Source: Limonium bicolor (Eukaryota > Streptophyta > Magnoliopsida > Caryophyllales > Plumbaginaceae). From it: a DNA stretch of 64,000 nucleotides. The notes under the pieces were generated by a model. The model searched no databases. It had not been told where the DNA came from and was given only the letters and a program-made list of their open reading frames with translations. Of the stretch, positions 29,288-62,223 are shown in pieces. How positions within the stretch are numbered: position 1 is the stretch's first letter; each line of letters opens with the position of its first letter. The stretch is from contig CM041779.1 in the NCBI GenBank assembly GCA_023374045.1, positions 302,322,167 to 302,386,166 of the forward strand, written 5' to 3'. A program made the position numbers and the translations under genes.

Positions 29288-29933
29288 GAGGATGGTGTGA
29301 GCCTCGATTTTCAAACCCTATCCTATGTTGATTCGAGTTGATTAGGATCTGATTGGGTTTTAGGTCCACTTATAACCTAAGTTTAATAACTAAGTTATAT
29401 AACCATAATTATTAAAACCTAAGCTAGCTCACTGGAACCTATTATGAGTCGCCACCTAATTCTAACCTAAATCAAATTAGGAAAGGAGAGTTCGGGTTCA
29501 AGGGCTTGATATTCGACTAATTAGGGTTCAATTACTTTCATTACCCCTAGAAGTTGTTTTTCCTCTACTTAGTTTAATTACGGCTTATTATGAGTCGTTT
29601 TAACCTAAGTGTGCACTTCTGATTTTTTTTTGAAATTTTAACAGTTTTTGACAGAAAATTAAAGTGAAAATTAAAAATACCTAAATTTGGGTTTCAGAGG
29701 CAAAATTAGGTGGAATTTTAATTATGTCAGTAGCCACGGACCTAATGTCTGAGACCACGGACCCCAGGTGAACTACATGATTATGGAAACCGAATTAAAA
29801 TAAAAAATGTAAACTTGAAAAGTCCGAGGACACGGACAGGGTGTCCGTGGGCCCAGACATGTACTGTTAAAAACCCTAAAATTTGAAAAATAAGAAATTC
29901 CGCCACCGTCCGTGGGTGTCCGTGGTCACGGAC
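29288..29933 (-). repeat. Inverted Tat/Ogre-like arm (leader, PBS, LTR end)
   Basis: Reverse complement of about 15830-16480, including the PBS (GAGTCGCCACCTAA at 29447-29460) and the GTCCGTGG/CCACGGAC inverted repeats near 29720-29932. Its breakpoint toward the centre is the same GTGTGAGCCTCG point that ends the left arm at 16480. The AlkB-bearing gypsy element is inserted at 29934 within this arm. Confidence 0.75.
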
Positions 29934-30424
29934 TGAAATACCCCAAACCTTGGTATGTTGGTTAAACATTAAAACATGATTTATTAAGACTAAAAAGAGT
30001 CTTAGAAACATTAGTAAACAATTTAAACAAAAGCAAACACAAAATGTGCTTTAAAGTCAATAAGAGCTAAAATGTGCTCTAAGCTTGGAATAAGCTTGGG
30101 TAAGACCTAATGAACTTACCAAGACCTTACCAAGCTTGAAAACAAGTTAAAACACAAAATGTGCTTTAAGAAGTCTTAAAGCACATTTTTGAAAAATTGT
30201 ATTGTAAATGAGTTTTGAGTGGTTAAATGCCCATCATTACTCTTAAATATATATGGGTACTATATAGTATCACATTTGGGTGGCTATATTAATGGGAAAT
30301 CAAAAATTTCACTTCTAAGTGCCTTGTTTAGGTGAATAGTGATTTTTATAAGCTAGTTTATAACATATGTTGTATTAAGTAATTAAATTGACAAACAAAG
30401 ACTAAAATACCCTCATACTAATAA

Positions 30425-30450
30425 AGGGGGCCGGTTTTTATAAGTGTGGT
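30425..30450 (+). promoter_or_regulatory. Putative core promoter in U3 (TATA-like)
   Basis: GGGGGCCGGTTTTTATAAG occurs here, with counterparts at 19341, 20582 and 24687 in related sequences and at about 4215 on the minus strand. A TATAAG box would be at 30439-30444. If used, R and U5 would form a leader of roughly 3.3 kb. Confidence 0.4.
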
Positions 30451-32028
30451 GACACACCACTCTCTAGTTAATGTAATAAGTAAGTAAAGCAAACTAAGTA
30501 AACTTACTTTTTACTTTATAAGCATAAATATCTTCTTAAAAGCAAATCCTATCTCATTCTCATTTCTTTCCTTCATTTTCCACGGTTCCAAACACCATCT
30601 TCTCCCCCTTCTTGCTGCTCTCTCTCGGTAATACTACTACCTCCATTAGAACTCCCACTTTGACCTCTTGTAAAATCTTGCTCACTTGTTCAAATCAAAA
30701 ACAAACACCATCAATCTCTTCCTCTCATCAAGCTCTTCATTCCTATCTTCTCAAAACTCCAAGAGCCCCATTTCGGTGCCAAGGTGTTCCACCATTGAAG
30801 GAGCTTGAGCTTGTATTTTGACATATTGTTGATATCCTTTGCTTCTAGGTAAGGAATCTCAAAGAAAAATCATGTTTCCTCCATGTTTTGTTGTTGACCG
30901 AAAATACACATTGATGTAGCTCTTTGTGTGACTTTGTTCTAGCTTCATTTCAACCTTTCATGGACTAGGTGGAGTCCTCTCTTCATAGATATTCAAACTC
31001 TCTTCAAAGACCAAGGTAAAACAACTACATTAATGTTTTTGAAACAATGTAAATTAGGGTTTACAATGAGATGAAGCTTATAGCTTGAATACTCATTATA
31101 ATGTTTGTATATTGTTTAGAACTTGACAAGGAATCAAATACCCTACCGGTCTTGTAGTGAAACAAGAAAGGAATTGTTTGGAAAAGAGGTAAATCTATTA
31201 ACCTTATGTTGTTTAATGCCTTAGGAGAAATGAGCTTATAAATGCTTATTAAAACTACCTAAAGAGCAAATGGTGAATGACTTAGTAAAGTGTTCTCAAG
31301 AGACTAGTAAAAGGCATATGTGTGTTGAGTGTATTTGCAGGTCAAAGGCAAATATATTGTGGAAATTCAGTGTTTAAGAGTTAAGCACCTTAAGGGCCTA
31401 AGAGCCATGAATTTTAAGGGCCTAAGTGCCATGCAATTTAGGTTATGCTTTATATTGTAATGTGGTGTGATTTGAGTAAAGTTTTGTGTGGGAGAGTGTT
31501 CTTGGTGATTCTAGATGTTCTTGTGTGTTTAATGGAGAAAACAAAGTGTTTAGGCTTAGAAATGTTCTAGGGGAATCCATGTCAAAATTTAGGTAAGAAT
31601 CAAGAAGTTCCAAGTGTTTAGATAAGGTTTGGTGAGCTAGAGGTGTTAGGAAATGACTAGGTGTTTTACAAGTGAAGGTATAATGTCTTAAGTGTTCTAG
31701 AGTGTAACAAGGACTTAGGCATGAGCTTGAGGTTTTAGTATGTACCAAAGTCATTTTGGACTTAGATAAAGACTTAGGCAAACTTTGGTAAAATAAGGAG
31801 AAAGTGTAAGCCTAGGAAAATGGATTTCAAGGATGACATAAGGAGTTTTAGTTTGTAAGAAATGATGTTTAAGTAATGATGTTGTGTGGAAGAAATATCT
31901 TGGTATAATGGTTAGAATAGGCAAGGAATACCACTTAGAAACTTAAGAAGAAGATACTATAAGTGTTGGAGGCTTTGGGGAAATTTGGTTGAGTGTTTAA
32001 AGGCATAGAAATTTGAGTATAATGCCTT

Positions 32029-32343
32029 GTCCGAACTTCCGTCCGGATGTGGAAGTTCGGACAGGCTCTGTTGGGTAAAGGAATTCTCACTCGCGAGCAG
32101 TGTCCGAACTTGGGAAGTCCGGACACATGTTCGGACGTACCCACCCATCCTTAGGATTATCCTCGAACTGTGTCCGAACTTGGGAAGTCCGGACACATGT
32201 TCGGACGCACGGATTTCTGTCTAAAGTTTTCTCGGCTCACGTCCGAACTTCCGAAGTCTGGACATAAGTTCGGACGTGTGTCTGTTTTCTGTCTAAAATC
32301 ACGGCTTGTGTCCGAACTTGGAAGCTCGGACACAAGTTCGGAC
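32029..32343 (+). repeat. Five-unit hairpin array in the AlkB element LTR
   Basis: Hairpins start at 32029, 32102, 32172, 32241 and 32310, a period of 69-73 bases. The first is a perfect 12-bp stem (GTCCGAACTTCC with GGAAGTTCGGAC). Units 2-5 hold one GTCCGAACTT arm followed by two possible partners (AAG(T/C)(C/T)(C/T)GGAC and GTTCGGAC), so each could form two alternative hairpins. Spacers between units are not repeated. The arms contain GAACT and GGACA pentamers. Confidence 0.9.
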
Positions 32344-33361
32344 AGGCCACTGTATGGGCCAAAAATTATTGTTTTAAGATGGGAATTGTTATCTAAAAAT
32401 AGTAGTTGGTTAGTGATGATATAATAAGGTTATATAAGACATGTTAGGTGGGTTTTAAAGGCAATTAAAAAGGATGAAAAGTTGTAACAAGTGTAAAATA
32501 AAAATAAACTAGTGATGTTGAGTAGATAATGTTAATAATGGACTAGTGCGTTAATTAACCGACGTTACTAATGTGTTTAGGATTCTCTCAAGGTGGAAAC
32601 GAAACGAGGCAAGGACCAAGGTATGGTTTTCTTGCAGTCTGTTGTCTACCGGTTTACACCGGCTTGGGTGTTGTTTGCTTTTTTGTGTGTTACGACCTTA
32701 TAAGATTAAGGCATGAAAAGAGTTTACAGTTGTTATACATTAAGATGTTGTAATGTTGTGACTCCTTTCCCTTGGTTGTCTAACCAGACCTAAATATTTG
32801 CTTGTATGTGACTTAACAAAATATTGTGTGATCACTAACAAGTGCTAATCGGGGGAAGTGAGGAGTCCGGTTGTTCCGGCCACGCGTGTGATGGACGGGA
32901 GTCGATATCATAACCGGTTCGGCTCTCTTGGTGTATGTATAGGTGGTATTCCAATTTGGTTTCTACCTTCCCTTAGCTTATCCAAAGCTAGTTACTGACT
33001 CACGTCGGGCCACAGGGGCATACGTATCTTATTTCGGTGTGCTTGGGATTACTATATCCGACACACCTTTGGTATAAGTTAACCGTCCTATATAACCGGA
33101 CGGTAACGAGGATGGTAACGAGCTTAACATGGGATTGGTAAAAATCTCTAGGCTCACATGGTATACTAACTATGGTGGAAGGTTCCTTGTGAGAACCGAT
33201 GTTATGGTGATATGTATTGTTATGATGCTATGCAAATTTCCCTTGCTATGCTGTGGTACATATATATATATATATGTTGGATGTTCTAAAATGAATGCCA
33301 TGTTATTATGACAATTGGTTGCGCGTATCCCGGTAGCCGATGGGCTGCGCGTTAGCCATAC

Positions 33362-33391
33362 CAGCAAAGGTTGCTGACCCCCTCGGGGGCT
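33362..33391 (+). other. Conserved double hairpin near U5 end
   Basis: CAGCAAAGGTTGCTG is followed immediately by ACCCCCTCGGGGGCT and an AT-rich run ending in TTGCAG. It occupies the same place as the double hairpin of sister LTRs; loops vary and stems are kept. Confidence 0.7.
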
Positions 33392-33790
33392 CCATATTTT
33401 ATTGCAGGATGAGGATCGAAGAAGCAGAGTGGCTCTAGGTCCTAGGTCGTTGATGTACTTTTGGCTATGTTGGTTGTTGAGCCCGGGATGCGCCTGTGCT
33501 CCCGAGGCATTACATTTTGGTACCGTTTGTTAATACTGGTGGATGTTTACGGTTGGAAGGTGTGTTGTAAATTAAATACTCGGTATGGTTGGCTATGTTA
33601 AATATATGGGAGTTAGATTCTATGCTCGGGAGTCTGATCATCAGACCGATACATTGTATTTATTCTGCCTAGTTAATCACCTGGGTGGTTAACGGCGTTG
33701 TAACACCAAGGCGTTTAGTTATTGTTTGGTTGGTTATTTCCGCTGTGATTTTGGTAGTTGTTAGGAGCGTTGTAGTGGTGTTACAAAAAG

Positions 33791-33803
33791 TGGTATCAAG
33801 GCG
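33791..33803 (+). other. Primer-binding site, tRNA-Met type (degraded)
   Basis: TGGTATCAAGGCG begins five bases after the LTR. The first eight bases match the initiator tRNA-Met site, then AGAGC has become AAGGC. The sister element's site at 583-595 is intact. Confidence 0.7.
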
Positions 33804-34004: not shown

Positions 34005-35464
34005 ATGGCAGGTAGACCACGAGGGAGAGGCCGCGGGCGCGGTACTGGAGGTTTGGGTGACAAGGGCGATGATACTACGGCACAGACTATGGCTGAGGCA
34101 GTTGCAGCCGCCGTAGCCCAGTTGGTACCCGATCTGGTTGCTGCTATACAGCAAGGGCAACAGCCCGGAGTTCAGCCACCACCACCACCGCCACGAGAGA
34201 CCAATTGGGTCAAGGCGTTGGCTGATCTAAGACCGCCATCATTCATTGGGGAGACTGATCCTCGAAAGCATGAGGCGTACATCTCCGAACTGGAGACCGC
34301 CTACGAGACCTTGGCAGTACCTACTGAAGCTAAGGTCCGTCTTGCCGCCTACTACTTGAAGGGTACGGCGCAGAGTTGGTGGAAGTTGGTGAAGGAGGAC
34401 AGGATGGCTGATCCTGAATTTGGTTGGAGGGAGTACACGGCTCTGCTACGAGCCAAGTACTACCCGGTACACGTGCAGGAGGCCAAGCGCCTCGAGCTGG
34501 ATAGTCTGAGACAGGGGGATAAGATGTCGGTTGACGACTACTACACCGCATTCACCGGCCTTATCCACCTGTTACCAGACCTTGGGTATTCGAACCGAGT
34601 GTTGGTGAACCGGTTCTACAATGGACTGAGCCACCGTCTCCGCTATGGGATGGGGCCAGCTGAGTATACCACCTTGCAGGTATTGGAGTACTTTGTTGTG
34701 AATCAGTCTATACCTTGAGTGAATGTTAATGTGAGTTGGTAAGTTGTTTTTGCGGGGCATGACTGACATCCTAAAATTCAGGAGTGCTATCATGCCGCTG
34801 CTAAGGTTGAAATTACCGTCCGTCTGAGGGACGAGGAGAATGCGCACAAGCGCAAGGCCACCAACGAGGGCCTGAGTCAGCAAGGGTATGGGGGAGGAAA
34901 GAAAAAGAAACCCTACCCTCAGCCCAGAAGGGTCAGTACCAGGGTGACAAGGGCCAAGCCCAGACCACTACAGCTGATGAGCCACTGAAGCTCACGTATG
35001 CGTACGCGGCGAAGCCTCTACGCTCCTACCCGCCTAAGGGTAATTACTTAACCATGTGTATCTAGTTGAGGTGTATGTTGTTAAGATGGAAAATGAGTAT
35101 TGATTGTGTGTTGTTGTAGCAGCTAGCGCGGGTGCTGGACCGGAGCGCCACTTTTACTGTAAGTGGTGCAATGGAGACCACCCCGGCAAAGACTGCAAGG
35201 GGAATGATGTGAGGTGTCGTCACTGCCAGAAGATGGGGCACCGTGAATTTGAGTGTTGGACGAACCCCAACAGCAGGAACTACAAGCCAAAGGGGCAGTG
35301 GAAGGGTAATACTACCACGACCACTGAAGGCCCGAAGGCGATCATTCAGCAGACTTCCGACAAGAAGTACACTGAATCCCAGAAGGGGAAGGGTACGGGG
35401 TCCGGCATGGCCGCCCTGAATGTGGTGGACCGGACAGAGGCACCAGGATCCTCTTCGAGACCAG
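34005..35464 (+). CDS. Gag of the AlkB-bearing gypsy element (three exons, one frameshift)
   Basis: Exon 1 (34005-34679) starts with a basic RGRGRGRG stretch after the ATG. A retrotransposon Gag domain follows, with SWWKLV, WREYTALLRAKYYP and QGDKMSVDDYYTAF segments. Exon 2 (34782-35039) follows a GT-AG intron in phase 0 and continues Gag, but the frame must shift near 34913. Exon 3 (35120-35464) joins in phase 1 and holds two zinc knuckles, CKWCNGDHPGKDC and a canonical CRHCQKMGHREFEC. It ends in a GT donor (CAG|GTACC); unspliced, the frame stops at 35475. Gag would bind element RNA and form particles. The introns are inferred from phase and splice sites, not transcripts. Confidence 0.8.
34680..34781 (+). 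other. Predicted intron 1 in gag
   Basis: GT at 34680 (TTGCAG|GTATTG) and AG at 34780-34781 (AAATTCAG|GAG). Removing 102 bases links two Gag-like reading frames in phase 0 and removes the stop at 34716-34718. Confidence 0.7.
35040..35119 (+). other. Predicted intron 2 in gag
   Basis: GT at 35040 (AAGG|GTAATT) and AG at 35118-35119 after a T/G-rich tract. The exons join in phase 1. A second AG three bases downstream (TAGCAG) makes a NAGNAG acceptor. Confidence 0.7.
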
Positions 35465-35594
35465 GTACCGCCTAAATTGTTAAATGAAAAGTGATTGCTT
35501 ACCGCATTTCATGCATGAGTGTTGTATTAGTGAGTCTAATGTACAACCACCTAAGTAATGAGATAAATAATGATGTGAGAGATACCTAAATTAG
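35465..35594 (+). other. Predicted intron 3 between zinc knuckles and AlkB exon
   Basis: Donor CAG|GTACCG at 35465 and acceptor AAATTAG at 35594, or an alternative AACCTAG at 35612. Both acceptors keep the frame, since they differ by 18 bases. Splicing joins Gag and AlkB in phase 1. Acceptor pyrimidine content is weak, so use is not certain. Confidence 0.55.
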
Positions 35595-36352
35595 ACAATG
35601 TGGAAAACCTAGGAACCTTCAATATCTGTTATCCAATCCCGCCCACACCAAACCCTGAGGAGACCACCATCAGCATCACCGAGTTCCCACTGGAGCAATG
35701 TCAGGTTATCCAACCAGGTATGATACTCTTAAGTGGATACCTGACACCGGAAGCACAAATCCACATCATCAGGCGTTGCAACGAACTTGGAGCAGCACCA
35801 GGAGGTTTCTACACACCCGAATACCCGAGCGGTTCGAAGATGAAGCTGAAGATGATGTGCATGGGTAAGGACTGGAATCCCTACACCAAGTCATATTAGG
35901 ATGCGCGAGCTGAAGACGGGGCGACTGTACCAGGTATACCTGAGGAGTTCCTTGCGGTTGTTAACCACACCGTGGGAATTGCTCAGCAACTTGAATCGAA
36001 ACCGATTCCGAACGTGGAAGCAGACTTATGCATTGTGAACTTCTACCAGAAAGGTGGACGGTTAGGGTTACACCAAGATAAGGACGAGTCACCCGAGTCT
36101 CTAAGTAAGGGAGTACCCGTGGTGTCTTGGTCCATCGGTGATACCGCAGTGTTTGTGTATGGCGAGCAGAAGCGTGCTGACCTCGCAAAGAAGCTACTGT
36201 TGAAATCGGGAGATGTATTAATCACGGGTGGGCAATCAAGAATGCTATACCATGGCATCAGGAAGATCAAACTGAATACCGCACCGTCGGCAGTGATCAA
36301 TGCCACACACATGAAACCCGGACGTTTGAATTTGACCTTCAGGCAGTTTTAA
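35595..36352 (+). CDS. AlkB-like 2-oxoglutarate/Fe(II) dioxygenase domain (ALKBH1-like), one in-frame stop
   Basis: One frame runs from 35595 to TAA 36352, broken only by TAG at 35897-35899. The N-terminal half has ALKBH1-type landmarks: a PGMILLSGYLTPEAQ segment, GGFYTP and MMCMGKDWNP. The catalytic core is complete: VNFYQKGGRLGLHQDKDES with iron ligands His 36071-36073 and Asp 36077-36079, VSWSIGDTAVFVYG, the second ligand His at 36251-36253 (LYHGIR), and the 2-oxoglutarate-binding RLNLTFR at 36323-36343. It ends two codons later, as cellular plant ALKBH1-like proteins do. The family oxidatively demethylates nucleic acids; N6-methyladenine or 1-methyladenine are plausible substrates, not shown. 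Absence of introns in the core suggests capture from a spliced mRNA. It lies between Gag and protease in the same orientation. Confidence 0.9.
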
Positions 36353-36463
36353 GCCTTGTATAATTATGTGATGTGATAACCAATGTGTATTAAGGATGTT
36401 GTAAGTGTAAATCATGGCGACAGTATAAGCCAATGAATGTTGTAAAAAGAGAGTGTGTTAATG

Positions 36464-36469
36464 AATAAA
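36464..36469 (+). promoter_or_regulatory. Possible polyadenylation signal after the AlkB exon
   Basis: AATAAA lies 112 bases after the AlkB stop and 66 bases before the acceptor used by the protease exon. It could end a Gag-AlkB transcript. This rests on the motif and its position only. Confidence 0.35.
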
Positions 36470-36535
36470 GTGGAGTTGTTTGAAGCATATAAATCGTGTT
36501 GTTACCCAATACTTATTAGTTTGCCAATGAATTAG

Positions 36536-37606
36536 GCTGTGCACTCGGAACGGGAGGTATACTGAGTGTCTGCAATAAGGCAGAAGCCGGCAAGAGCGGC
36601 ACAATCTTCACCGGTACCTTCCCAGTGAATGGCGTGGATGCATCGATCTTGTTCGACTCTGGAGCCTCACACACATTCATTTCGCTATCATTTGCGAAGA
36701 GGCTGGGGTTAGACGGTGAAGAGATGCCAGACTTCGTGGTCACTCTCCCGTCGAAAGAGCGGATCAGATGTACCCGCTACTACCGAGATGCTGTTGTTCG
36801 AATCATGGATGAGGAGCTTCCGATCGACTTGATAGAGTTCGACGGACTAGGTTTTGATGTGATTGTCGGGATGAACTGGTTGAAGCGGTACAAGGGCAGA
36901 ATCCTGTGTGCCGAGCATCGACTGCTTCTTCGGAGTCCATCTGGGGTTACCATATCTTACCGCCAGAGGCCCAGGGAGCCTTCGACTCAGATCATCACCG
37001 CCATGGCTATGTATCACGAGTTACGACGAGGGAGTGATGTATACCTCTGCTATGTCCAGGACATAGAGAGAGACCCTGAGTTTAGCCCAGATGTGCCGGT
37101 AGTGTCGGAGTTTCCTGATATATTTCCTAAGGAACTGCCGGGCATGCCGCCAGCACGAGAGGTTGAGTTTGAGATTGATCTAATTCCGGGCACCGGACCC
37201 ATTGCAAAAGCGCCTTATCGTATGGCTCCAGCAGAGATGACAGAGCTCAAGGAGCAGCTGAGAGACCTACTCGACAAGGGCTTTGTCCGCCCTAGTGTTT
37301 CACCATGGGGAGCGCCGGTCCTCTTCGTGAAGAAGAAGGACGGTAGCCTCCGCCTGTGTATTGATTATCGGGAGCTGAATACTGTTACGGTGAAGAACCG
37401 TTACCCTTTACCACGCATCGACGATCTATTTGATCAGCTGAGGGGAGGATCAGTTTTCTCCAAGATAGACCTACGTTCCGGATACCACCAGATTGCCATC
37501 CGTGACAGCGATATCGAAAGGACAGCATTCAGAACTAGGTATGGGCATTATGAGTTCACAGTTATGCCGTTTGGCTTGTCAAATGCACCAGCAAAGTTCA
37601 TGGACA
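36536..37606 (+). CDS. Protease and reverse transcriptase start (Tekay/Del-like), truncated by gap
   Basis: Coding sequence extends upstream of the first ATG (36625) to an acceptor at 36534-36535 (GAATTAG|GC), where it is in phase 1 and so compatible with gag exon 3. The protease motif [12 protein letters not shown] (D-S-G) lies at about 36650-36685. The linker with [15 protein letters not shown] introduces RT, with [38 protein letters not shown] and [14 protein letters not shown]. The gap begins before the YxDD box. No stop or frameshift is seen in the visible 1,071 bases. The protein would mature Gag-Pol and copy element RNA into DNA. Confidence 0.93.
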
Positions 37607-38106
37607 NNNNNNNNNNNNNNNNNNNNNNNNNNNNNNNNNNNNNNNNNNNNNNNNNNNNNNNNNNNNNNNNNNNNNNNNNNNNNNNNNNNNNNNNNNNNNN
37701 NNNNNNNNNNNNNNNNNNNNNNNNNNNNNNNNNNNNNNNNNNNNNNNNNNNNNNNNNNNNNNNNNNNNNNNNNNNNNNNNNNNNNNNNNNNNNNNNNNNN
37801 NNNNNNNNNNNNNNNNNNNNNNNNNNNNNNNNNNNNNNNNNNNNNNNNNNNNNNNNNNNNNNNNNNNNNNNNNNNNNNNNNNNNNNNNNNNNNNNNNNNN
37901 NNNNNNNNNNNNNNNNNNNNNNNNNNNNNNNNNNNNNNNNNNNNNNNNNNNNNNNNNNNNNNNNNNNNNNNNNNNNNNNNNNNNNNNNNNNNNNNNNNNN
38001 NNNNNNNNNNNNNNNNNNNNNNNNNNNNNNNNNNNNNNNNNNNNNNNNNNNNNNNNNNNNNNNNNNNNNNNNNNNNNNNNNNNNNNNNNNNNNNNNNNNN
38101 NNNNNN
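37607..38106. other. Assembly gap, 500 N
   Basis: Exactly 500 N. RT of a Tekay/Del-like element is on the left and gag of an Athila-like element on the right, so at least one element boundary is hidden here or unrelated contigs were joined. Confidence 1.
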
Positions 38107-38640: not shown

Positions 38641-39976
38641 TGGCAGGGAACCATACTGATGAGGAGATCGAGCCCCTTTCTAATACCGCCGGTGCACCAT
38701 CAGGGAATCCTGCCCCTCCTGTGGTAGTTCGTGAGGAGACCCAGGCTCCTATTCCTTCTTCCTCTCATTCAACTGCTATTAAAAATACAAAAGGAAAAAC
38801 ATCTGCAAAAGAACTTCCTTTTCCAAACCGTCTCAAAGAGCGAGAGCTCGATGAGCAATTTGGAAATTTTTAGATGTCTTTCGAAAGCTGACTATCAATA
38901 TTCCTCTTATTGATGCGATCAAACAGATGCCAAATTATGCTAAATTTGTGAAGGATTTGATTTCGAATAAGCGGAAGTATAAGGAGAAGGACACCATTCA
39001 GCTGACTGAGACCTGTTCAGCAGCGATCCTACAGAAGCTGCCTCCAAAGCGTGGTGATCCTGGTCAGCCCATTATTCCTTGCTCAATTGGAGATATGGAT
39101 TGTGGATACGGTCTCTGCGATCTAGGAGCGAGCATCAACCTGATGCCATACACCATGTTCAAAAAGCTTCATGCGGGTGAGCTCGTTCCAATTCATTTCA
39201 AACTCCAATTAGCTGATAGATCATCAATCACACCCAGAGGTATGGTAGAGAATGTGGTTGTTAGTGTGGGTAAGTTTTTCTTCCCAGCTGATTTTGTGAT
39301 CCTCGACATGGATGAGGATGTTGAGGTACCTCTAATTCTTGGTAGACCTTTCCTTAGAACTGCAAAGACTGTTATCGATGTTGATAAAGGAAAGATTACT
39401 TTGAAATTTCATGACGAAGAATTAAGTTTTGATATTAATAAGATGATGCAGAAAAATACTTCTTCTCATGCTGTTTTCTCTGCTGATTTAATTGAGAATT
39501 TTTATGATCTTGAGGATGACTACATCCATAGGAGTACTGATACTTCTAATTCTTTGTTTAAGTGTTCTGACATTTTAGAGCAGGTATTGTGCCTATCCAT
39601 TGAGGATGACAAGGAAAGCTTAGAGATGGCCTCAGTCGTCCAGCAACTTAATCAATGGAGGTCATATTTTCGCTCCTCCACTCCTCTAGTAGAAAAGCTG
39701 GATCGACCCATCCAAAGGCCTATCCCTTCAATACAGAAGCCTCCTACCCTTGAACTCAAATCTCTTCCTTCCCATCTTAAATATATTTTCTTGGCAGAGG
39801 GTAGCACCCTGCCTGTTATTATCTCTGCATCTTTGTCTGTTTCACAGGAAACTAGACTTCTGGAGGTGCTCAAGAGGCATAAAGGTGCCATGGGATGGTC
39901 AGTTGCTGATATCAAAGGATCAATCCTGGTTTCTGCACTCACCGGATCTATATGGAGGATAATTATAAGGCAGTGA
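38640..39976 (+). pseudogene. Athila-like protease region
   Basis: A basic/proline linker (38640-38870) ends in FPNRLKERELDEQFGNF and a stop; the frame changes and continues from 38873. The aspartic protease core carries CDLGASINLMPY (Asp at 39119-39121; D-L-G in place of D-S/T-G, usual for Athila), then LADRSS and VPLILGRPFL. The frame stops at 39974-39976, where an adjoining frame continues into RT. Expected role: cleavage of the Gag-Pol polyprotein. Confidence 0.85.
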
Positions 39977-40800
39977 GGCAGCCCCAGAGAAGATTAAATC
40001 CCAATCTGAAGGAGGTGGTCAAAGCTGAAGTGCTGAAGCTTCTTGATGCAGGCATTATCTACCCGATATCTGACAGCCAGTGGGTGTCTCCAGTCCAGGT
40101 TGTCCCAAAGAAAGGAGGGATCGTGGCAGTTCCCAATGAGAAGGGGAGATGGTTCCTCAGAGGCAGACGACCGGGTGGAGAATGTGTATTGACTACCGTC
40201 GCCTCAACAATGCCACAAGGAAGGACTATTTCCCGCTCCCTTCATCGATCAATGCTGGAGCGGTTGCTGGTCAGGAGTTCTACTGCTTCCTCGATGGCTA
40301 TAGTGGCTACTTCCAGATCCCTATTGCTCCAGAGATCAAGAGAAGACACCTTTACCTGTCCATATGGGACATTCGCATATAGGAGGATGCCTTTTGGCCT
40401 CTGTAATGCTCCTACAACTTCCAGAGATGATGATGGCCATCTTCAATGACTTCATTGAGAAGAGCATTGAAGTTTTTGGACGACTTTTCAGTTTATGGGC
40501 AGAGTTTCGAGGTGTGCTTGGAGCAGTTGGATAAGATATTGGGGATGTGAGGAGACAAACCTTGTGCTGAACTGGGAGAAGTGCCATTTTATGGTACGGG
40601 AAGGTATTGTACTGGGTCACAAGGTTTCTAAGGAGGGCATCCAGGTAGATAAAGCCAAGGTGGAGGTGATAGAGAAGCTCCCCCCACCGACTACAGTGAA
40701 GGATGTCAGGTCGTTCCTTGGTCATGCAGGATTCTACAGGAGATTCATTCAGGACTTCTCAAGATTGCTAAGCCCCTGTCAGACCTGCTAGAAATGTCAA
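39952..40800 (+). pseudogene. Athila-like reverse transcriptase, frameshifted
   Basis: Conserved RT blocks are scattered over several frames: AGIIYPISDSQWVSPVQVVPKKGG, then WRMCIDYRRLNNATRKDYFPLP, FLDGYSGYFQI, and MPFGLCNAP in a third frame. The catalytic region reads FLDDFSVYG at about 40470-40500, where active elements have (Y/F)xDD. LVLNWEKCHFMVREGIVLGH and VKDVRSFLGHAGFYRRFI follow. At least four frame changes show it is non-functional. Confidence 0.85.
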
Positions 40801-40904
40801 GTTCCAGTTCACTGAGGAGTGTTTGAGCCTTTCAGACCATCAAAGATAAGCTCTGCTCAGCCCCAATTGTGGTCCCACCAGAGTGGTCAGAACCGTTCAG
40901 ATCA

Positions 40905-41246
40905 TGACAGATGCGAGCGATTATGCTGTTGGCCGCATTATGTCAGAAGAAGGATAAGATGCTGAGAGTAATCACCTATGCTAGCAAGACCTTGATAGAC
41001 GCACAGAAAAATTATACTACTACAGAGAAAGAGTTGCTAGTTGTGGTGTTCGCTCTGGATAAGTTTCGACCATATCTGCTAGGAAGCAAGGTGATTGTCC
41101 ACACTGATCATACGGCCCTCAAGTATCTTTTCCAGAAAAATGAATCGAAGCCTAGACTTCTGAGGTGGATTCTGCTTCTCCAAGAATTTAATTTGGAGGT
41201 TGTGGATAAAAAGGGAAAGCAAACGGAGTTGCTGATCACTGTCTAG
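40905..41246 (+). pseudogene. Athila-like RNase H
   Basis: Frame 40911-41246 contains [40 protein letters not shown] and [11 protein letters not shown], the usual gypsy RNase H blocks. The preceding catalytic DASD motif (about 40910-40921) is in another frame, so a frameshift separates active-site residues. The stop at 41244 falls before the expected ADHLSRL motif, whose remains follow in another frame. Confidence 0.82.
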
Positions 41247-41269
41247 ACTCGACCTTCCTGATGATGGAG

Positions 41270-42560
41270 TCCCAATCAATGAGTTCTTCCCTGATGAGAC
41301 AGCATTCAAGATTGGAAAGGTAAATGAACCATGGTACGCAGACTTAGCAAATTATCTGGTTTCTGGTTTAATTCCACATGACTACAGTTATAACCAGAGG
41401 AAGAAGTTCCTTTCAGAGACACGCCATTACATATGGGAGGATCCTTATCTGTTTCGGGTCTGTGCTGATGGTCTGATGAGGCGTGTCTCCCATGATGAGA
41501 TTTCAAGTGTGCTAGAATTTTGCCATTCAAAGGAGGCAGGTGGACATCACGGTCCTACAAGGACAGCTGCCAAAATATTAGAGTGTGGTTTTTATTGGCC
41601 CACTCTTCACAAGGATGTTCATCGCTTCTGCTCTCAATGTGATAAATGTCAAAGAATGGGTAATATATCAAGAAGGCATGAGATGCCTCAAAAAGGAATT
41701 CTGGAGGTAGAGTTGTTCGATGTATGGGGATAGACTTCATGGGCCCCTTCCCTTCATCCCATGGGAATCAATACATCCTTGTTGTAGTAGATTATGTATC
41801 TAAATGGGTTGAAGCAATTGCTAGTCATGCTGCTGATGCTAAGACAGTAGTCAAGTTCCTAAAGAAGCATATCTTCACCAGGTTTGGTGTGCCTAGAGCG
41901 ATCATTAGTGATGGAGGCTCACATTTCTGCAACAAGGCCTTTGAATCTTTAATGACCAAGTACGGAGTGACCCATAAGGTAGCATTACCTTATCATCCAC
42001 AAACCAATGGTCAAGCAGAAGTGAGCAACCGTGAGCTTAAATGGATTTTGCAGAAAACTGTTACTGCTTCGAGAAAGGACTGGTCAGTCAAGTTGGACGA
42101 CGCCCTCTGGGCCTACCGTACTGCATTTAAGACCCCTATAGGGACGTCTCCATTCAAGCTTGTATATGGGAAAGCCTGTCATCTCCAGTAGAGCGAACAT
42201 AAAGCATATTGGGCATTGAAAGCCCTAAATTTTGACTTACATGCTGCAGGAGAGAAAAGAAATTTCAGCTGTCTGAACTCGAAGAACTAAGAGAACAAGC
42301 TATGACAGCTCCAGAATTTACAAGGAGCGCACAAGAATCCATGATCAAATGATACAGAAGCGAGAATTTAAAGTAGGGGATCTGGTGTTGCTCTACAATT
42401 CCAGGCTGCGCCTTTTTCCTGGCAAGTTGAAATCCCATTGGGCAGGTCCATTTAAAGTTGTGGGGATCACTACTATGGTGCCTACGAGCTAGAAAACAAG
42501 TCAGGAGAGGTATTCAAAGTGAATGGTGCTCGACTGAAGAAATACCTAGGCGATACCTTT
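41270..42560 (+). pseudogene. Athila-like integrase
   Basis: An N-terminal zinc domain (H-H-C-C with CHSKEAGGHHGPTRTAAKI and CSQCDKCQRMG) ends at 41733, and a frame shift leads into the catalytic core (41724-42191). The core has the triad Asp 41733-41735, Asp 41910-41912 and Glu 42018-42020; the last two are 35 residues apart, the canonical DD35E spacing. The frame stops at 42189-42191 after [10 protein letters not shown]. The C-terminal domain ([19 protein letters not shown]) is read in shifted frames to about 42560. The catalytic triad is intact but the polyprotein is broken. Confidence 0.88.
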
Positions 42561-53391: not shown

Positions 53392-54245
53392 TGTAACATA
53401 TAAATTCCTAAAAAAAACTCAGGAAGACAGGCAGCGGAAAACACCAAGCAACATTCGGGCACTTAGCAAACACACATGCGCACAGAAACATTGAACATAT
53501 GCATTAAAGAAAACAAGCATTCACATACTAGCGACGCCAAGCACATAGCTTGACATGCCTTAGGGTAATTTAACCTGAGGTATCGGCGATGCGGCACGAT
53601 ACCAGCATGCCAGAATGTGCCACTCATAACCACAAGGATGAGAGTAGACTTTGTACCACCGTTAACAGATAAGTTTTCTGGCCATCCCAATTCCCTTAAC
53701 TTCAAGCGCCAAGGTCATAAGGGATCTGCGCACCACTTGCAACTCCTGCCCAAGTGCGCAGCCCAAGTACAAGTAAGGCTGGTGTTCGGGTAACAACAAG
53801 GTTAGCCCACACAGTCAATGCAAACACCGACAACAAGCGGGTGAGGGCGTCGGGCGGACACCAACACACTTATCTCCACCCTGATCCAACTCATCCCTGT
53901 GCGAGCCACAAAGGCTCTAACGATGTGTCGCCCGCACATCAGGGTAAGAATAACCAGGGACATACTGAGTTGATGCCGCCAGCTCTCGGCATCAGGGTAA
54001 TAGAAGCTCGCACCGAAGTTCCAAAGCTCTAACCCCAAGGAGCCCCTCAGCTACCCGCACACCTGCAAGTTAGCTTAAAAGGTGTATAACAGAGAGAGAT
54101 CGAGTCATCGCAACGCAAATACGAAAAGGCTACTTCTTTTATTAATTGATATACAAGGTCTGAAGGGTTACATTACATCGTTGAGTATAAATACATTCTG
54201 GTGTCAAGCTTCTTGTCTTTGTCCTCACAAAAATTAGACGTAACA
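53392..54245 (-). repeat. 3' LTR of minus-strand chromovirus-like gypsy element
   Basis: On the minus strand it starts TGTTACGTCTAATTTTTG right after a GGTGGGGGAGG polypurine tract and plausibly ends ATGTTACA at 53392. It carries TTAATAAAAG (about 54140), a probable polyadenylation signal. It aligns in reverse with 56189-56830 and 58167-58808. The distal end is less certain. Confidence 0.7.
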
Positions 54246-55350
54246 AACCTCCCCCACCTAAGTCTTTGCCGTCCTCGGCAAAGATTCTAAGTACTTTTGT
54301 ATCTCATCCCTAAATTGCCATAAATTGCCCTCTCATTCCCACATCACGTCTTCCCTGGCCTTTCCCTTCCAGTGAATCAGAAAGTCTATTCGCTGATTAG
54401 CTTTCCAACTTGCTCGCCGATGGGCGAGTACTTCTTGGATTCCTTTCTCGTATTGAACAGATATAGTCGGTGGGGCCCGAGCATTATCCTCATGCAAACT
54501 TTGTTCATCTGTCGTGTAAGGTTTCAAGAAGCTTACATGAAAGGTAGGGTGCATCCTCAACCTTTCCGGAAGGTCAAGACGGTATGCAGCATTGCTGATA
54601 CATTGAACGACCTCGAAAGGCCCATCAAAACGTTGAACAAGTCCCTTATGCAAGGGTCTTCTGATCTTCTTCAAGATCTGTGGAGTAAGTTTTAGCATCA
54701 CACGATCCCCAACATTAAACTCCAACGGCCTTCACCCTTCTTCATTCGGTTGGAAGCAAGTTCTAAACTCTCATTTGCCATCCTGAACAATTTTTGTCGA
54801 TCTCGAACAAATTCATAGGCAGCTGGGCACTGCCCCATTGCAGCCTGCTTCGCAACTTCCGCAGGAGTTAAGGGTTTCCAGCCCATAACTAACTCGAAGG
54901 GACTCTGCTTCGTGGCACTGTTCTTGTGCATATTGTAGCATAGTTGTGTCGTGTCTAACAGATGTAACCAGTTCTTTTGGGAAGCTCTAACATAATGACG
55001 AAGATACTCCTCAAGGAGCGCGCATATCCTCTTCATCTGTCCATCCGTCTGTGGATGGTTAGCTGTTGAAAATTTCAACTCGGAACCCATTAGACCAAAT
55101 AATGTTACCCAAAACCTGCCGGTGAACCGAGTATCCCGATCACAAATAATATTTCGGGGAAGGCCAAAGTACTTTACCACATGAGAATAGAAAAGCTTCA
55201 CTGCCATTTTAGCTGGACAATTCATTGGCATGGGCATGAAAATAGCAAACTTCGAGAACCGGTCGACAACCACTAGCATTGAGGACTTACCCTCGACACT
55301 AGGGAAGCCCGACACAAAATTCAGGGAGACCAACGCCCAATCCAGGCACA
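54246..55350 (-). pseudogene. Chromovirus-like integrase with chromodomain-like tail, catalytically dead
   Basis: Minus strand, core from about 55350 to 54700. The first catalytic position reads LNFVSGFPS (Asp changed to Asn); the second is intact (IICDRDTRFTG). The third is DGQMKRICALLEEYLR, where the expected Glu is Lys. The core continues through PFELVMGWKPLTP. A frame change near 54720 leads to the C-terminal domain (FNVGDRVMLKL, LKKIRRPLHKGLVQRFDGPFE). A chromodomain-like end follows, with EVLAHRRAS and RIDFLIHWKG and the final aromatic region interrupted at 54333. The element cannot integrate itself. RT and protease are absent. Confidence 0.85.
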
Positions 55351-55459
55351 TGTAAATTATGTATAAAAGTCGGTATGTGGGTGGGAGTTTAGACTTTTGA
55401 GATCTTGGAGTTTCCAAGATTCCCCATGTTCCGGGGATCACCTTTTTTCGGGATCGTTT

Positions 55460-56160
55460 ATGGGCACATGAGCTAGTGTGAAGAGGGAGAAGTGTTCGTT
55501 CGGTTTGGCGAAATATCGATGCAGATGCGGGAAAGGGTTTTCTCATAAGGTACCCCTTTTTACCGACTTGCTCAAAGTGAGCAAAAATGGGATGGGGACG
55601 GGTGCGCGCCCAGGAGGCATTCGAGTGGCTGAAGTGACGTATTTCCTCGGAACCAGTACTTAAGTTGCCTGAGTTTGATAAGTCCCTTGAGAGTCTGAAG
55701 TTATGAGGAGCTGAATCAATTTTATTCGGCTCATGTGCAAGAGATGCTTACAGTAATCCTTTGTCTTATGATTTGGAGCCATTACCTTCCCGGAACTAAG
55801 CAAGCGAGATGTGAAGAGTTTTCGGGTCGGCACAATGGTGTCCCTGGTGCTCTGAGTTGGCATTGTTTTGGGCTAAACAACAATATCTCTCGTGTGGGAA
55901 TTGACATGGTGGTCAGAATCCGGGTAGCATCAAAAACTGACTCGACTTACAAACAAATTCGTGAGAAAGTCCATGATGGCAAATACTCGACGCTACACCC
56001 CGCTTGAGGACCTTGCTACTTGATGAGCGACATTGAGTTGTTGTTCATGCTGGGAAATTTCGTATCAAAATAGGGAGGAAGAAGTTGCGACGTGGGAATG
56101 AGAGGGGAACTTACTGCATTTACGAGATGAGATACAAAAGTACTTAGAATCTTTGCCGGG
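55460..56160 (+). pseudogene. Plus-strand chromovirus-like pol fragment (RNase H and 3' end)
   Basis: Reads on the plus strand, opposite to the neighbour at 54246-55350. A LFTDLLKVSKNG segment (about 55560) resembles the gypsy RT-RNase H connection (PLTDLLKK). RIRVASKTDSTYKQIREKVHDGKYS (55914-55994) resembles the linker before the integrase zinc domain. 56107-56160 repeats the element's terminal LRDEIQKYLESLPGTAKT stretch, adjoining a polypurine tract and LTR. Integrase is deleted between them. Heavily damaged. Confidence 0.6.
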
Positions 56161-56188
56161 GACGGCAAAGACTTAGGTGGGGGAGGTT

Positions 56189-56832
56189 TGTTACGTCCAA
56201 TTTTTGTAAGGACAAAGACAAGCAGCTTGACACCATAATGTATTTATACTCAACGATGTAATGTAAGCCTTCGGACCTTGTATCTCAATTAATAAAAGAA
56301 GTAGCTCTTTCGTACCTGCGTTGCGATGACTCGATCTCTCTCTGTTATACACCCTTTAAGCTAACTTACAGGTGTGCGGGTAGCTGAGGAGCCCCTTGGG
56401 GATAGAGCTTTGGAACTTCGGTGTGAGCTTTTATTACCCAGATGCCGAGAACTGACGACATCAACTGAGTATGTCCCTAGTTATTCTTACCCCGATGTGC
56501 GGGCGGCACATCGTTAGAGCCTTTGTGGCTCGCCACAGGGATGAGTTGGACCAGGTGGAGATAAGTGTGTTGGTGTCTGCCCGACGCCCTCACCCTTCGG
56601 TTATCGGTGCTTGCATTGACTATGTGGGCTAACCTTGCTGTTACCCGAACACCACCATTCCTTGTACTTGGGCTGCGCACTTGGGCGGGAGTTGCAAGTG
56701 GTGCGCAGATCCCCTCTGACCTTGACGCTTGAAGTTAAGGGAATTGGGATGGCCGGAGGACTTATCTATTTAGGGTGGTACAAAGTCCCTCTATCCTTGT
56801 GGTTAAGTGGCGCATTCCTGCATGTTAGCATC
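56189..56832 (+). repeat. Chromovirus-like LTR, plus strand, copy 1
   Basis: Starts TGTTACGTCCAATTTTTG after GGTGGGGGAGG. It contains the same TTAATAAAAG signal. It is truncated relative to 53392-54245 at GCATCG, after which it joins unrelated sequence shared with the copy at 58812. Confidence 0.75.
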
Positions 56833-57594
56833 GACTCTTCAAATAAGATTCGTCATGGATTATGTTTTGGTAACTTTAAAATTTTATAAGTTTAGAATGA
56901 GTAATATATTAGGCATTTTGAAAAGTGAATCTTATTCATTAGCAAAATAAATCTTCTTTAATGATAAAATGAGCCTTATTTCATACAAAATGAATCTTAC
57001 CCCAAGCACTCTAAAAACCACCCTAGAAAGTTAAAAACGTCCGAAGACATTTTTAGGTTTGTAGTGTAGAGACCCTAAACCACAAACCTAAAAACCTGTT
57101 GAGTCAGTAACGATATATAAAGTGTAGAACTAATACCAAAAAGATTACCCTCCCCCAACCACAACCCCTAAAAACCACCCTAGGAAGCTAAAATGTCGAA
57201 GGCATTTTTAAGGTATGTAGTGCAGGGTTTAGGGTAGTCTGTAACACCTATATAAAGTGAGAAACCATACCAAAAGATTACCTTACCCTCAAACACCCTA
57301 AAAACCACCCTAGGAATGCTAAAAACATCGAAGGTATTTTTAGGGTTTGTTAGTGCAAGTTAGGTTCACTTTTAAAAAATGTAAAGATTCACATTGTTTT
57401 ATGAAATGTTTTACTTTTCTTGAACATAAGATTTACTTTTTTAAAACGAATTATCACTTTCAATATGAAAGGTTCATACTGTTCTCGTTAATTTGTGGTA
57501 GGATTAACTTTTACTAGTATTAAATAAAATTTCACTTTTCTTAATTTGATTCACCTTTAAAAAACCTTTGATTCACTTTTCTTAAACCTCTTAT
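56833..57594. repeat. Repeated AT-rich spacer, copy 1
   Basis: AT-rich, with recurring CCCTAAAAACCACCCTAGGAA and TGATTCACTTTTC-like units. It is nearly the same as 58812-59588. It ends at the gap. No gene. Confidence 0.7.
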
Positions 57595-58094
57595 NNNNNN
57601 NNNNNNNNNNNNNNNNNNNNNNNNNNNNNNNNNNNNNNNNNNNNNNNNNNNNNNNNNNNNNNNNNNNNNNNNNNNNNNNNNNNNNNNNNNNNNNNNNNNN
57701 NNNNNNNNNNNNNNNNNNNNNNNNNNNNNNNNNNNNNNNNNNNNNNNNNNNNNNNNNNNNNNNNNNNNNNNNNNNNNNNNNNNNNNNNNNNNNNNNNNNN
57801 NNNNNNNNNNNNNNNNNNNNNNNNNNNNNNNNNNNNNNNNNNNNNNNNNNNNNNNNNNNNNNNNNNNNNNNNNNNNNNNNNNNNNNNNNNNNNNNNNNNN
57901 NNNNNNNNNNNNNNNNNNNNNNNNNNNNNNNNNNNNNNNNNNNNNNNNNNNNNNNNNNNNNNNNNNNNNNNNNNNNNNNNNNNNNNNNNNNNNNNNNNNN
58001 NNNNNNNNNNNNNNNNNNNNNNNNNNNNNNNNNNNNNNNNNNNNNNNNNNNNNNNNNNNNNNNNNNNNNNNNNNNNNNNNNNNNNNNNNNNNNN
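57595..58094. other. Assembly gap, 500 N
   Basis: Exactly 500 N, flanked on both sides by near-identical sequence (56116-57594 and 58095-59588), which suggests haplotype duplication or a mis-scaffolded repeat. Confidence 1.
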
Positions 58095-59588
58095 CATTTA
58101 CGAGATGAGATACAAAAGTACTTAGAATCTTTGCCGGGGACGGCAAAGACTTAGGTGGGGGAGGTTTGTTACGTCCAATTTTTGTAAGAAGAAAGACAAG
58201 CAGCTTGACACCATAATGTATTTATACTCAACGATGTAATGTAAGCCTTCGGACCTTGTATCTCAATTAATAAAAGAAGTAGCTCTTTCGTACCTGCGTT
58301 GCGATGACTCGATCTCTCTCTGTTATACACCCTTTAAGCTAACTTACAGGTGTGCGGGTAGCTGAGGAGCCCCTTGGGGATAGAGCTTTGGAACTTCGGT
58401 GTGAGCTTTTATTACCCAGATGCCGAGAACTGACGACATCAACTGAGTATGTCCCTAGTTATTCTTACCCCGATGTGTGGGCGGCACATCGTTAGAGCCT
58501 TTGTGGCTCGCACGGGGATGAGTTAGACCAGGGTGGAGATAAGTGTGTTGGTGTCCGCCCGACGCCCTCACCCTTCGGTTATCGGTGCTTGCATTGACTA
58601 TGTGGGCTAACCTTGCTGTTACCCGAACACCACCATTCCTTGTACTTGGGCTGCGCACTTGGGCGGGAGTTGCAAGTGGTGCGCAGATCCCCTCTGACCT
58701 TGACGCTTGAAGTTAAGGGAATTGGGATGGCCGGAGGACTTATCTATTTAGGGTGGTACAAAGTCCACTCTTATCCTTGTGGTTATGAGTGGTGCATTCC
58801 GACATGCTGGCATCGACTCTTCAAAACAAGATGCGTCATGGATATGTTTTGGTAAACTTAAAATTTTATATGTTTAGAATGAGTATATATTAGGCATTTT
58901 GAAAGTGAATCTTATTCATTAGCAAAATAAATCTTCTTTAATAATAAAATGAGCCTTATTCATTAACAAAATGAATCTTACCCCAAGCACTCTAAAACCC
59001 ACCATAAGAAAGTTAAAAACGTCGAAGACATTTTTATGGTTTGTAGTGTAGAGATCCTAAACCACAAACCCTAAAAACCTGTCAAGTCAGTAACGATAAT
59101 ATAAAGTGTAGAACTAATACCAAAAAGATTACCCTACCCCCCAAACACCCTAAAAACCACCCTAGGAAAGCTAAAAATGTCGAAGGCATTTTTAAGGTAT
59201 GTAGTGCAGGGTTTAGGGTAGTCTGTAACAACGATATAAAGTGTAGCCAATACCAAAAAGATTACCTTACCCTCAAACACCCTAAAAACCACCCTAGGAA
59301 TGCTAAAAACATCGAAGGTATTTTTAGGGTTTGTAGTGCAAGGTTAAGGTTCACTTTTAAAAAAATGTAAAGGATTCACATTGTTTTATATGAAATGTTT
59401 ACTTTTCTTGAACATAAGATTCACTTTTTTAAAATGAATTATTCACTTTCAATAAATGAAAGGTTCATACTGTTCTCGTATAAGTTTGTGGTAGGATTAA
59501 CTTTTACTAGTATTAAATAAAATATTCACTTTTCTTAATTTGATTCACCTTTAAAAACCTTTGATTCACTTTTCTTAAACCTCTTATT
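58095..59588 (+). repeat. Second copy of pol end, LTR and spacer
   Basis: Direct repeat of 56116-57594 with an offset of about 1,978 bases, including polypurine tract, LTR (58167-58811) and AT-rich spacer. Many differences are single-base indels in homopolymers. Confidence 0.85.
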
Positions 59589-60984: not shown

Positions 60985-62223
60985 TTATTGAATATCTTTA
61001 TTAGCCCTAAAGACAAATGACTGGAGATGTAGTCTAGCATCCCTTGCAGCTTCAAGAGACTCTTCGTTTGGTCTTTCCTTGACTTCCGCCAAAGCAAGGA
61101 GATACGCTTTTTTTGCCTCTTCCATTTCGAGCATGTCATCTGCGCCAACTTCATCCTATTTTTCACACAATTGAAGGGGCAGTAAGGTCATTTTCTATTT
61201 TCAAACTTAAAACTTAAGTTAACGTGCAACCCATCATCCCTTTCCCTTGTTGGCAATCAACAAGATGTACTAAATTGTGCTTCACGTTGCACTTTCATGA
61301 CAGAACATGTTTACAATAAACAGGAAGATGAATCGGACAGGAAATGCAAAGGATCAAATCACTAGCCCAAATGATAAAATTCACGAATGAACTAAGCGAA
61401 AGAGCCATCAAACTTACTATTTCAGGAACATAGTCAAAATGGAAAGGGGCAATGTCATAGTCATCTTCTCTATTAAAAGATGCATCATCCCTTGTCAAGC
61501 CATCAAATACCGTCATAAATGAAGACATCTCAGTTTGCATGGAATCAATCTCTTCTTGCAGCTTCTCAACTTTCTGGTTGGATGTCATGGCTTCCCATCG
61601 AGTCTTCTCAAGAGCCGCTTGCTTGTCTGCTAGCTTTATCTGCAAGATAGATATGGGAATACAGCATTCTAGTCATCTTTGTTCTCTAAACACCAAGTGA
61701 AGATGTACAGATAACCAATGGTTCTAGTGATCCGCCTAAAAACCAAAATGGCCATGCTGTCATTAGAACGGGATATTTCTATTGTTGCCCCAGTCATATA
61801 CTTCGAAACAGGAAGAGCAATCTTTAAAGTTATGCATTTCAGATACGTGCAAGAAAGACACACCTTAACGTCAGAGAGTTGTTGTTGAATAGATGCAACG
61901 AAAGAATCCTTTTGTGAGGTTTGCAGCTTTAAATCATCGTACTTTGCTTGCACTAGTTTGACTTGGTTTTTAGAGTTCTCAGCTGCTTTTAATATCTCAT
62001 CTTTTTCTAGCAATCTCCTCTGCAAAGTGTCCACTTCTTGCCTCAGCGAAATTAGCTCTTCAGAGTCTCGCTCTGCAACCATATTTGCTGAAGTGATGAT
62101 GGGGAAATTGTCGGTTGCATTGGAATCATTTTCTGATCTCTTGCTCCTGTCTTTCTCTGCACAATCTCTATGTTTCTTTCCAGGAACAGATTTTGAAGCA
62201 ATAACTCTCTTTGAGTCATTATT
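60985..62223 (-). CDS. MPB2C: MPB2C-like microtubule-associated protein, last three exons
   Basis: Three exons fit by splice sites and phase 0: 62223-61864 (120 codons), 61639-61418 (74 codons) and 61155-60985 (56 codons plus stop). The first encodes a basic linker and a heptad-rich coiled coil (ISLRQEVDTLQRRLLEKDEI). The second continues it (IKLADKQAALEK, WEAMTSNQKVEKLQEEIDSM, SSFMTVFDGLT) and ends in an acidic region. The third is a helical tail (MLEMEEAKKAYLLALAEVK, ending LQSFVFRANKDIQ). This matches the C-terminal architecture of plant MPB2C, a microtubule-linked protein that binds viral movement proteins and KNOTTED1-type homeodomain proteins. The recognition is from memory of the family. 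N-terminal exons are not identified; they should lie at higher coordinates or beyond the window. Confidence 0.82.
61418..61639 (-). other. MPB2C-like internal coding exon
   Basis: Acceptor TTGCAG before ATAAAGCTAGC and donor ATA|GTAAGT. 222 bases, 74 codons, phase 0 on both sides. This exon carries the best-conserved coiled-coil text. Confidence 0.82.

Follow-up and report, generated by a model that had tools for sequence, protein, structure and literature searches.

Domains of the AlkB dioxygenase family are named in some plant RNA viruses and in a plant Ty3/gypsy retrotransposon, the orchid (Phalaenopsis) Gypsy_Pa_2799 family of the Ogre/Tat branch, which is reported to encode an ALKBH5-type protein, from its second open reading frame (ORF2), with N6-methyladenosine (m6A) demethylase activity in vitro (PMC9289625). 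According to the same report, this element measures 25.5 kb and has a tRNA-Arg primer site, a separate 565-aa 2-oxoglutarate-dependent dioxygenase (2-ODD)/AlkB ORF2 and an intronless single Gag-Pol ORF, and its screen of 121 genomes is stated to have detected no such domain in other genomes (PMC9289625). Splicing, for its part, has been described in Ogre elements, where an intron between gag-pro and the reverse transcriptase (RT) is partially spliced (PMC6317226), and in the BARE retrotransposon, where it is reported to favour a subgenomic Gag RNA (PMC3735527). Here we describe a Ty3/gypsy long terminal repeat (LTR) retrotransposon of Limonium bicolor whose spliced gag gene has an AlkB domain as an alternative terminal exon. 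It lies in a stretch of 64,000 nucleotides (GCA_023374045.1, contig CM041779.1, positions 302,322,167 to 302,386,166 of the forward strand), hereafter the window. A preliminary description of the window, made from its letters, knew of no AlkB-bearing plant gypsy family; the orchid family, although of another lineage and enzyme class, overturns that statement (PMC9289625).

The AlkB domain recurs in the genome to which the window belongs (2,924,550,425 bases, or 2.92 Gb, in 2,686 contigs). A search with the PF13532 profile gave 38,325 first-look candidates; 150 were scored, all of them above the cut-off and only one (L007) with an internal stop. From these we fetched 28 loci (8 returned by the search and 20 chosen across the list of 150), one being a duplicate, so that 27 distinct loci, or 28 copies with that of the window, were compared. 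The order zinc knuckle, AlkB, protease, RT was found in 27/27 loci, and a gag exon 1 query matched 24 of them (all except L007, L018 and L019). By sequence they fall into subfamily A (21 loci and the window copy, with AlkB 84-91% identical to that copy) and subfamily B (six loci, 67-69%). Allowing up to two mismatches, a 26-base AlkB word occurred at 7,056 places in the genome; for a protease word the count was 10,913, and the reversed controls gave 0. In the 39.4 Mb listed from the start of contig C1 there were 78 exact protease words, 42 of which lay 906-935 bp downstream of an exact AlkB word (the window predicts 927 bp), and 100 exact AlkB words, 42 of which were paired with a protease word; these are lower bounds, since an exact match was demanded of both words. 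Because the same order holds in every distinct locus, the placement of AlkB between gag and protease is far beyond chance, and it is present in thousands of copies. The preliminary description had reported AlkB on the same strand as the Gag zinc knuckles and the protease and between the two, as Pfam also finds it in the window copy, and had allowed that it might be a one-off insertion; the other copies show that it is not. Tandem runs of AlkB matches about 10.1 kb apart were also seen at C1:497439466-497470353 and C1:18345180-18385890, resembling head-to-tail LTR-internal units.

In the window, the AlkB frame (35579-36352, plus strand) is open as far as the AlkB C terminus apart from one in-frame TAG, and PF13532 matched its C-terminal part with E = 9.5e-36 and its N-terminal part with 6e-4, the latter under the curated cut-off. 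The best solved chain by sequence was rice ALKBH1 (5xeg, E = 2.2e-42, with the C-terminal 150 residues only as query), and rice ALKBH1 was also top in the PDB by fold. Among the 120 of 2,805 database matches listed, the relatives named to subfamily were ALKBH1C/1D-like. Judged by these nearest relatives in sequence and fold, the element AlkB is of ALKBH1 type, in keeping with the preliminary description. Trees in which ALKBH5/9/10 rows were not included placed the element clade apart from 29 cellular-type rows with a support of 100/100. The catalytic marks noted earlier (HxD, the distal His and RxNxTxR) were all found in the window copy; moreover, H, D, H, R, T and R are kept in 28/28 copies, with the Fe and 2-oxoglutarate (2OG) ligands intact in all of them, and the N of RxNxTxR is kept in 23. 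The domain is encoded by one uninterrupted exon, which agrees with the suggestion of the preliminary description that it may have been captured from a spliced ALKBH1-like mRNA.

The spacers that separate the gag pieces, AlkB and pol start with GT, finish with AG and have a GC content of 0.32-0.38, the values being 0.57-0.58 for the gag exons, 0.49 for AlkB and 0.52 for pol. In subfamily A, donor 3 (CCAG/GTA), the AlkB acceptor (AG/GAA, 35612/35613) and the pol acceptor (TTAG/G) are conserved in 22/22 rows, and donor 1 (CAG/GTA), acceptor 1 (AG; altered in L018) and donor 2 (GTA) in 21/22 each. In subfamily B, both acceptors of intron 3, that of pol and that of AlkB (AG/GAAGC), are present in 6/6 loci, while donors 1, 2 and 3 and acceptor 1 are present in 5/6, L019 being altered. 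In A, a stop codon within intron 3 ends the Gag frame shortly after donor 3 (as PGTA* in 21 of the 22 rows, as PGTT* in one). The frame is kept across the joins in A, as read by eye in the window and from the fetched junction copies, and the Gag-AlkB join is in frame in five of the six B loci. The gag gene is interrupted by spliceosomal introns and has AlkB as an alternative last exon.

If the gag spacers are introns, exact exon junctions are to be expected in the genome as a product of reverse-transcribed spliced RNA. Junction searches were each run with a reversed-pattern control, and every control gave 0. The exon 1/exon 2 junction, from which intron 1 is missing, was present at 581 places when as many as two mismatches were allowed. 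Intron 2 is precisely missing in L010, L037, L042, L044 and L050, and both versions of its junction allowed by the tandem acceptor (TAGCAG, 35117-35122) occur in the genome, in L037 and L050. For intron 3, the junction of gag exon 3 with pol, in which AlkB is skipped, was found at 11 exact and 3 one-mismatch places, and that of gag exon 3 with AlkB at 11 exact and 1 one-mismatch places; 49 two-mismatch matches of the former and 4 of the latter were excluded from the spliced count as possible variants of unspliced copies. When copies were fetched, 11/11 of the exon 3/pol copies, 10 from exact places and one from a place with a mismatch, were precisely joined at 35464/36536, 3 of them having lost introns 1 and 2 as well, and 5/5 of the exon 3/AlkB copies were joined at 35464/35613, in frame as ...PSSRPG-TFNICYP...; one of the latter, L050, also lacks introns 1 and 2. 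Subfamily B gave 4 exact and 7 one-mismatch places for its Gag/AlkB junction, and 1 exact and 1 one-mismatch places for Gag/pol. Both outcomes of splicing at intron 3 are therefore demonstrated as genomic copies of spliced RNA. In a boundary test of intron 1 with gag relatives, other splice choices scored slightly above the one supported by the genome. The preliminary description had overlooked the gag introns, the spliced Gag-AlkB fusion and the in-frame TAG at 35897-35899.

The AlkB domain is under purifying selection, which the preliminary description had named as a thing to look for: median ratios of nonsynonymous to synonymous substitution (dN/dS, Nei-Gojobori) were 0.167 within A (230 pairs), 0.156 within B (15 pairs), 0.119 between A and B (128 pairs) and 0.176 between the window copy, which was not chosen by AlkB score, and A (21 pairs), an overall span of 0.12-0.18. 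For other parts of the element, the medians within A were 0.165 (gag exon 1), 0.245 (protease) and 0.084 (RT). Because synonymous sites are saturated between A and B, AlkB has long been resident in the family. The most economical history is a single capture that preceded the division into A and B. The copies themselves can be young. Parts of the LTR pairs could be compared in five of eight loci and showed 27/1597, 9/1499, 11/1562, 20/1489 and 1/632 mismatches per aligned columns, gaps excluded (identity 96.0-98.6% when gaps are counted); a pair was sought and not found in L011 and L027, and L028 gave 190 bp only. Taking substitutions only and the usual plant LTR rate, 1.3e-8, the insertions with comparable LTR pairs are less than one million years old.

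We propose that RNA unspliced at intron 3 would yield Gag, ending at the stop just within the intron, that splicing of donor 3 to 35613 would yield Gag-AlkB and that splicing to 36536 would yield Gag-Pol, so that the choice made at donor 3 would set the ratio of coat, enzyme and polymerase. Fused to the nucleocapsid end of Gag, AlkB would be brought to the element RNA and into the virus-like particle, and there would likely strip methyl groups from the element RNA or its complementary DNA (cDNA), the candidates being N6-methyladenine (6mA) in DNA and m6A or N1-methyladenosine (m1A) in RNA. A rice study reports that ALKBH1 acts on 6mA with a preference for single-stranded or unpaired DNA (PMC10469495), and minus-strand cDNA would therefore suit as a substrate; m6A on the RNA of plant LTR elements is reported to cause trapping in stress granules, relieved by the host AtALKBH9B (PMC12786077), so that the element RNA would suit as well. 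We assign a probability of about 0.62 to the reading that an alternative terminal exon of ALKBH1 type is spliced to Gag and carried into the particle, where it likely demethylates element RNA or cDNA. The more specific proposal, in which alternative splicing from one donor switches between three products (Gag, Gag-AlkB and Gag-Pol) and the demethylase so packaged would clear host methyl marks from the element genome before or during reverse transcription, seems to us an even bet.

Several observations weigh against this reading. In the window copy AlkB is broken by a stop and gag by a frameshift; at least one stop is present in the AlkB alignment of 7/28 copies, and N251 is replaced by S in 5/28. 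The loci were taken from the top PF13532 scores, which biases their intactness and dN/dS (the latter downward). Spliced intron-3 copies number in the tens, whereas the AlkB word has 7,056 places, and the isoforms could therefore be rare. The protease word outnumbers the AlkB word, and some relatives may lack AlkB. The junctions of subfamily B are known as word matches, the fetched junction copies all coming from the searches with the subfamily A patterns. Lastly, the Gag-AlkB protein, its packaging and its activity are predicted from DNA, demethylation being taken from homology.

Among the alternatives, the one that survives best, though we consider it unlikely, retains the same splicing and lets AlkB work outside the particle, on host transcripts or DNA (m6A or 6mA), where it would relieve silencing or stress-granule trapping of the element. 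The release of ONSEN RNA from stress granules by the host AtALKBH9B (PMC12786077) and the OsALKBH1-like fold of the element AlkB speak for it, whereas the joining of AlkB, in frame, to the nucleocapsid end of Gag favours a location in the particle. It is distinctly less probable that AlkB is translated alone from an internal Met of unspliced or spliced RNA, with the Gag-AlkB join incidental: an in-frame Met does open the Pfam domain in the window (QPGMILL), and some copies have one a few residues earlier, but the first ~25 codons of the AlkB exon contain no Met and, in A and B alike, the exon as far as the ALKBH1 FDIC-like motif keeps its frame with donor 3. We hold it very improbable that the intron-free copies are chance deletions or an intron-free ancestral lineage, and not reverse-transcribed spliced RNA. 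Places are not events, as some spliced-copy places recur 10-11 kb apart in tandem and one event may count repeatedly, and one exon 3/AlkB copy, L049, is an exception in that intron 2 is gone with inexact edges, with stops nearby. Against this, the losses match the GT..AG sites to the base for three introns, two alternative acceptors and two subfamilies, partial and full combinations of intron loss both occur, and a decoy acceptor, the other in-frame AG before AlkB (at 35594), gave 0 junction matches in the genome. The start of the feature at 35595 in the preliminary description was thereby rejected as a splice acceptor (0 matches versus 11 exact for 35613): its end at 36352 stands, and the conserved exon begins at 35613, 18 bases later. 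That a host ALKBH1 fragment landed by chance in one decayed element, as the stop codon of the window copy might suggest, is already refuted by the 27/27 loci, the 7,056 word matches, the two subfamilies and the purifying selection; recurrence likewise rules out a processed host pseudogene, and by eye no poly-A run follows the AlkB stop.

With its LTR, primer binding site (PBS), gag and the order protease, RT, RNase H, integrase, the AlkB-bearing element is a Ty3/gypsy LTR retrotransposon, and its features are collected in Table 1. Pfam recognized the protease (RVP_2, 2.1e-27) and the RT (3e-15) of the window copy on the same strand as AlkB, and the order RVP_2, RVT_1, RNase H, integrase in L027; the 3′ half of the window element is missing at the assembly gap 37607-38106. 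Past the integrase, a weak chromodomain match (PF00385) with 22.0 and 21.1 bits, under the cut-off of 25.1, suggests a possible chromovirus (Tekay/Del-like). The PBS reads TGGTATCAAGGC in the window copy and TGGTATCAGAGC adjoining the minus-strand LTR that ends at 601; the PBS word is present in 17 of 20 ten-kb loci, and TGGTATCA is of the tRNA-Met type. Unlike in the window copy, gag exon 2 is a single open frame in L027.

Table 1. Features of the AlkB-bearing element in the window (positions of the window; slashes mark splice boundaries)
Feature	Position	Strand	Remarks
5′ LTR	29296..33785	+	TGTGAGCC...GTGTTACA, 4490 bp; termini common to other LTR copies in the window
LTR copies with the same termini	starts 16462 (-); ends 19156, 24164, 28573 (+), 601 (-)
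PBS, tRNA-Met type	33791..33802	+	two changes in the window copy
gag exon 1, capsid part	34005..34679	+	PF03732, E = 7.4e-18; 3′ edge CAG/GT
gag intron 1	34680..34781	+	102 bp, GC 0.38
gag exon 2	34782..35039	+	frames read; one frameshift near 34907-34930 in the window copy
gag intron 2	35040..35122	+	tandem acceptors TAG/CAG/ (35119 or 35122), frame kept by both
gag exon 3, zinc knuckle	35123..35464	+	zf-CCHC_3, E = 0.0012, under the Pfam cut-off
Intron 3, short form, to AlkB	35465..35612	+	Gag stop codon within, 35473-35475
AlkB exon, ALKBH1 type	35613..36352	+	PF13532; TAA end at 36350-36352
In-frame TAG breaking AlkB of the window copy	35897..35899	+	frame translation
Intron 3, long form, AlkB skipped, gag exon 3 joined to pol	35465..36535	+
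pol exon, protease and RT start	36536..37606	+	RVP_2, RVT_1; interrupted by assembly gap 37607-38106

LTR copies of the family are spread across window positions 531-33785, and those ending at 19156, 24164 and 28573 have no PBS and look like solo LTRs. Beyond the 500-N gap, on its right, follows a different gypsy element (38855-42191), with no AlkB match, whose RT is only about 28-37% identical to that of the AlkB element (tblastn). Elsewhere in the window, two 1.2-kb direct repeats (5254-6465 and 9538-10747, 98% identical) flank an element, copia-like by appearance, that is inserted in one of the gypsy family's LTR copies on the minus strand; direct and inverted repeats of 0.2-1.5 kb, for the most part 90-95% identical, cluster around the gap 57595-58094 (53597-59587); and an open frame with coiled-coil text on the minus strand (61669-62280) presumably resembles a plant microtubule-binding protein. 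Among database proteins, P0121 and P0122 (Smallanthus sonchifolius) are long AlkB proteins whose scores suggest two consecutive AlkB domains. P0174 of Cinnamomum micranthum, in which a gag domain is joined to a cellular-type ALKBH1, was rejected as a relative, its AlkB falling among angiosperm cellular proteins and its gag being 28% identical; it is apparently a separate gag insertion or a model fusion. A gag protein search gave 3 weak matches among 5,825 candidates, and viral contigs and phage records gave no useful lead.

Among the best matches in Creative Commons-licensed PubMed Central (PMC) literature, assessed mainly by title and abstract, there was no ALKBH1-type domain or Gag-AlkB splice form in an LTR element. 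The family closest in description is that of the orchid, as reported likewise a plant Ty3/gypsy family that keeps an AlkB-family dioxygenase over many copies with conserved Fe/2OG residues (PMC9289625). The present element differs from it in having (i) a primer site of tRNA-Met type instead of tRNA-Arg, (ii) an AlkB exon between gag exon 3 and pol instead of a separate ORF beside gag-pol, (iii) best matches to ALKBH1 where the orchid enzyme is of ALKBH5 type, the trees being without ALKBH5/9/10 rows, and (iv) gag introns with a spliced Gag-AlkB, the orchid Gag-Pol being intronless. Because enzyme class, primer site, position and expression all differ, we read the AlkB capture as independent of the orchid one. 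It appears to be a second acquisition of AlkB among plant gypsy elements, with another AlkB class and another layout, which points to RNA methylation or 6mA-type DNA methylation as a real barrier for retrotransposons, and it would add a mechanism of delivery, the spliced Gag fusion. The exact exon junctions give RNA and protein predictions, and since the family is abundant and has young copies, restraint of plant transposons by epitranscriptomic or adenine methylation becomes directly testable in the host. The rice ALKBH1 (5xeg, 5xoi; PMC10469495) is described as a cellular gene, whereas the element clade stands apart from the cellular-type rows; the AlkB of plant RNA viruses is likewise borne by a parasite, but these are RNA viruses, likened here by description and not by sequence. 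As in Ogre, where partial splicing is reported to pick the polyprotein made (PMC6317226), splicing here would select the product. Ogre has one intron; in the present element there are three donors, two acceptors in competition and an exon for the enzyme domain. BARE, a copia-type element, has no added enzyme, and the present element is expected to yield Gag from RNA that retains intron 3. AlkB was thus already known from a plant gypsy family; a spliced gag with AlkB as its alternative terminal exon appears to be new.
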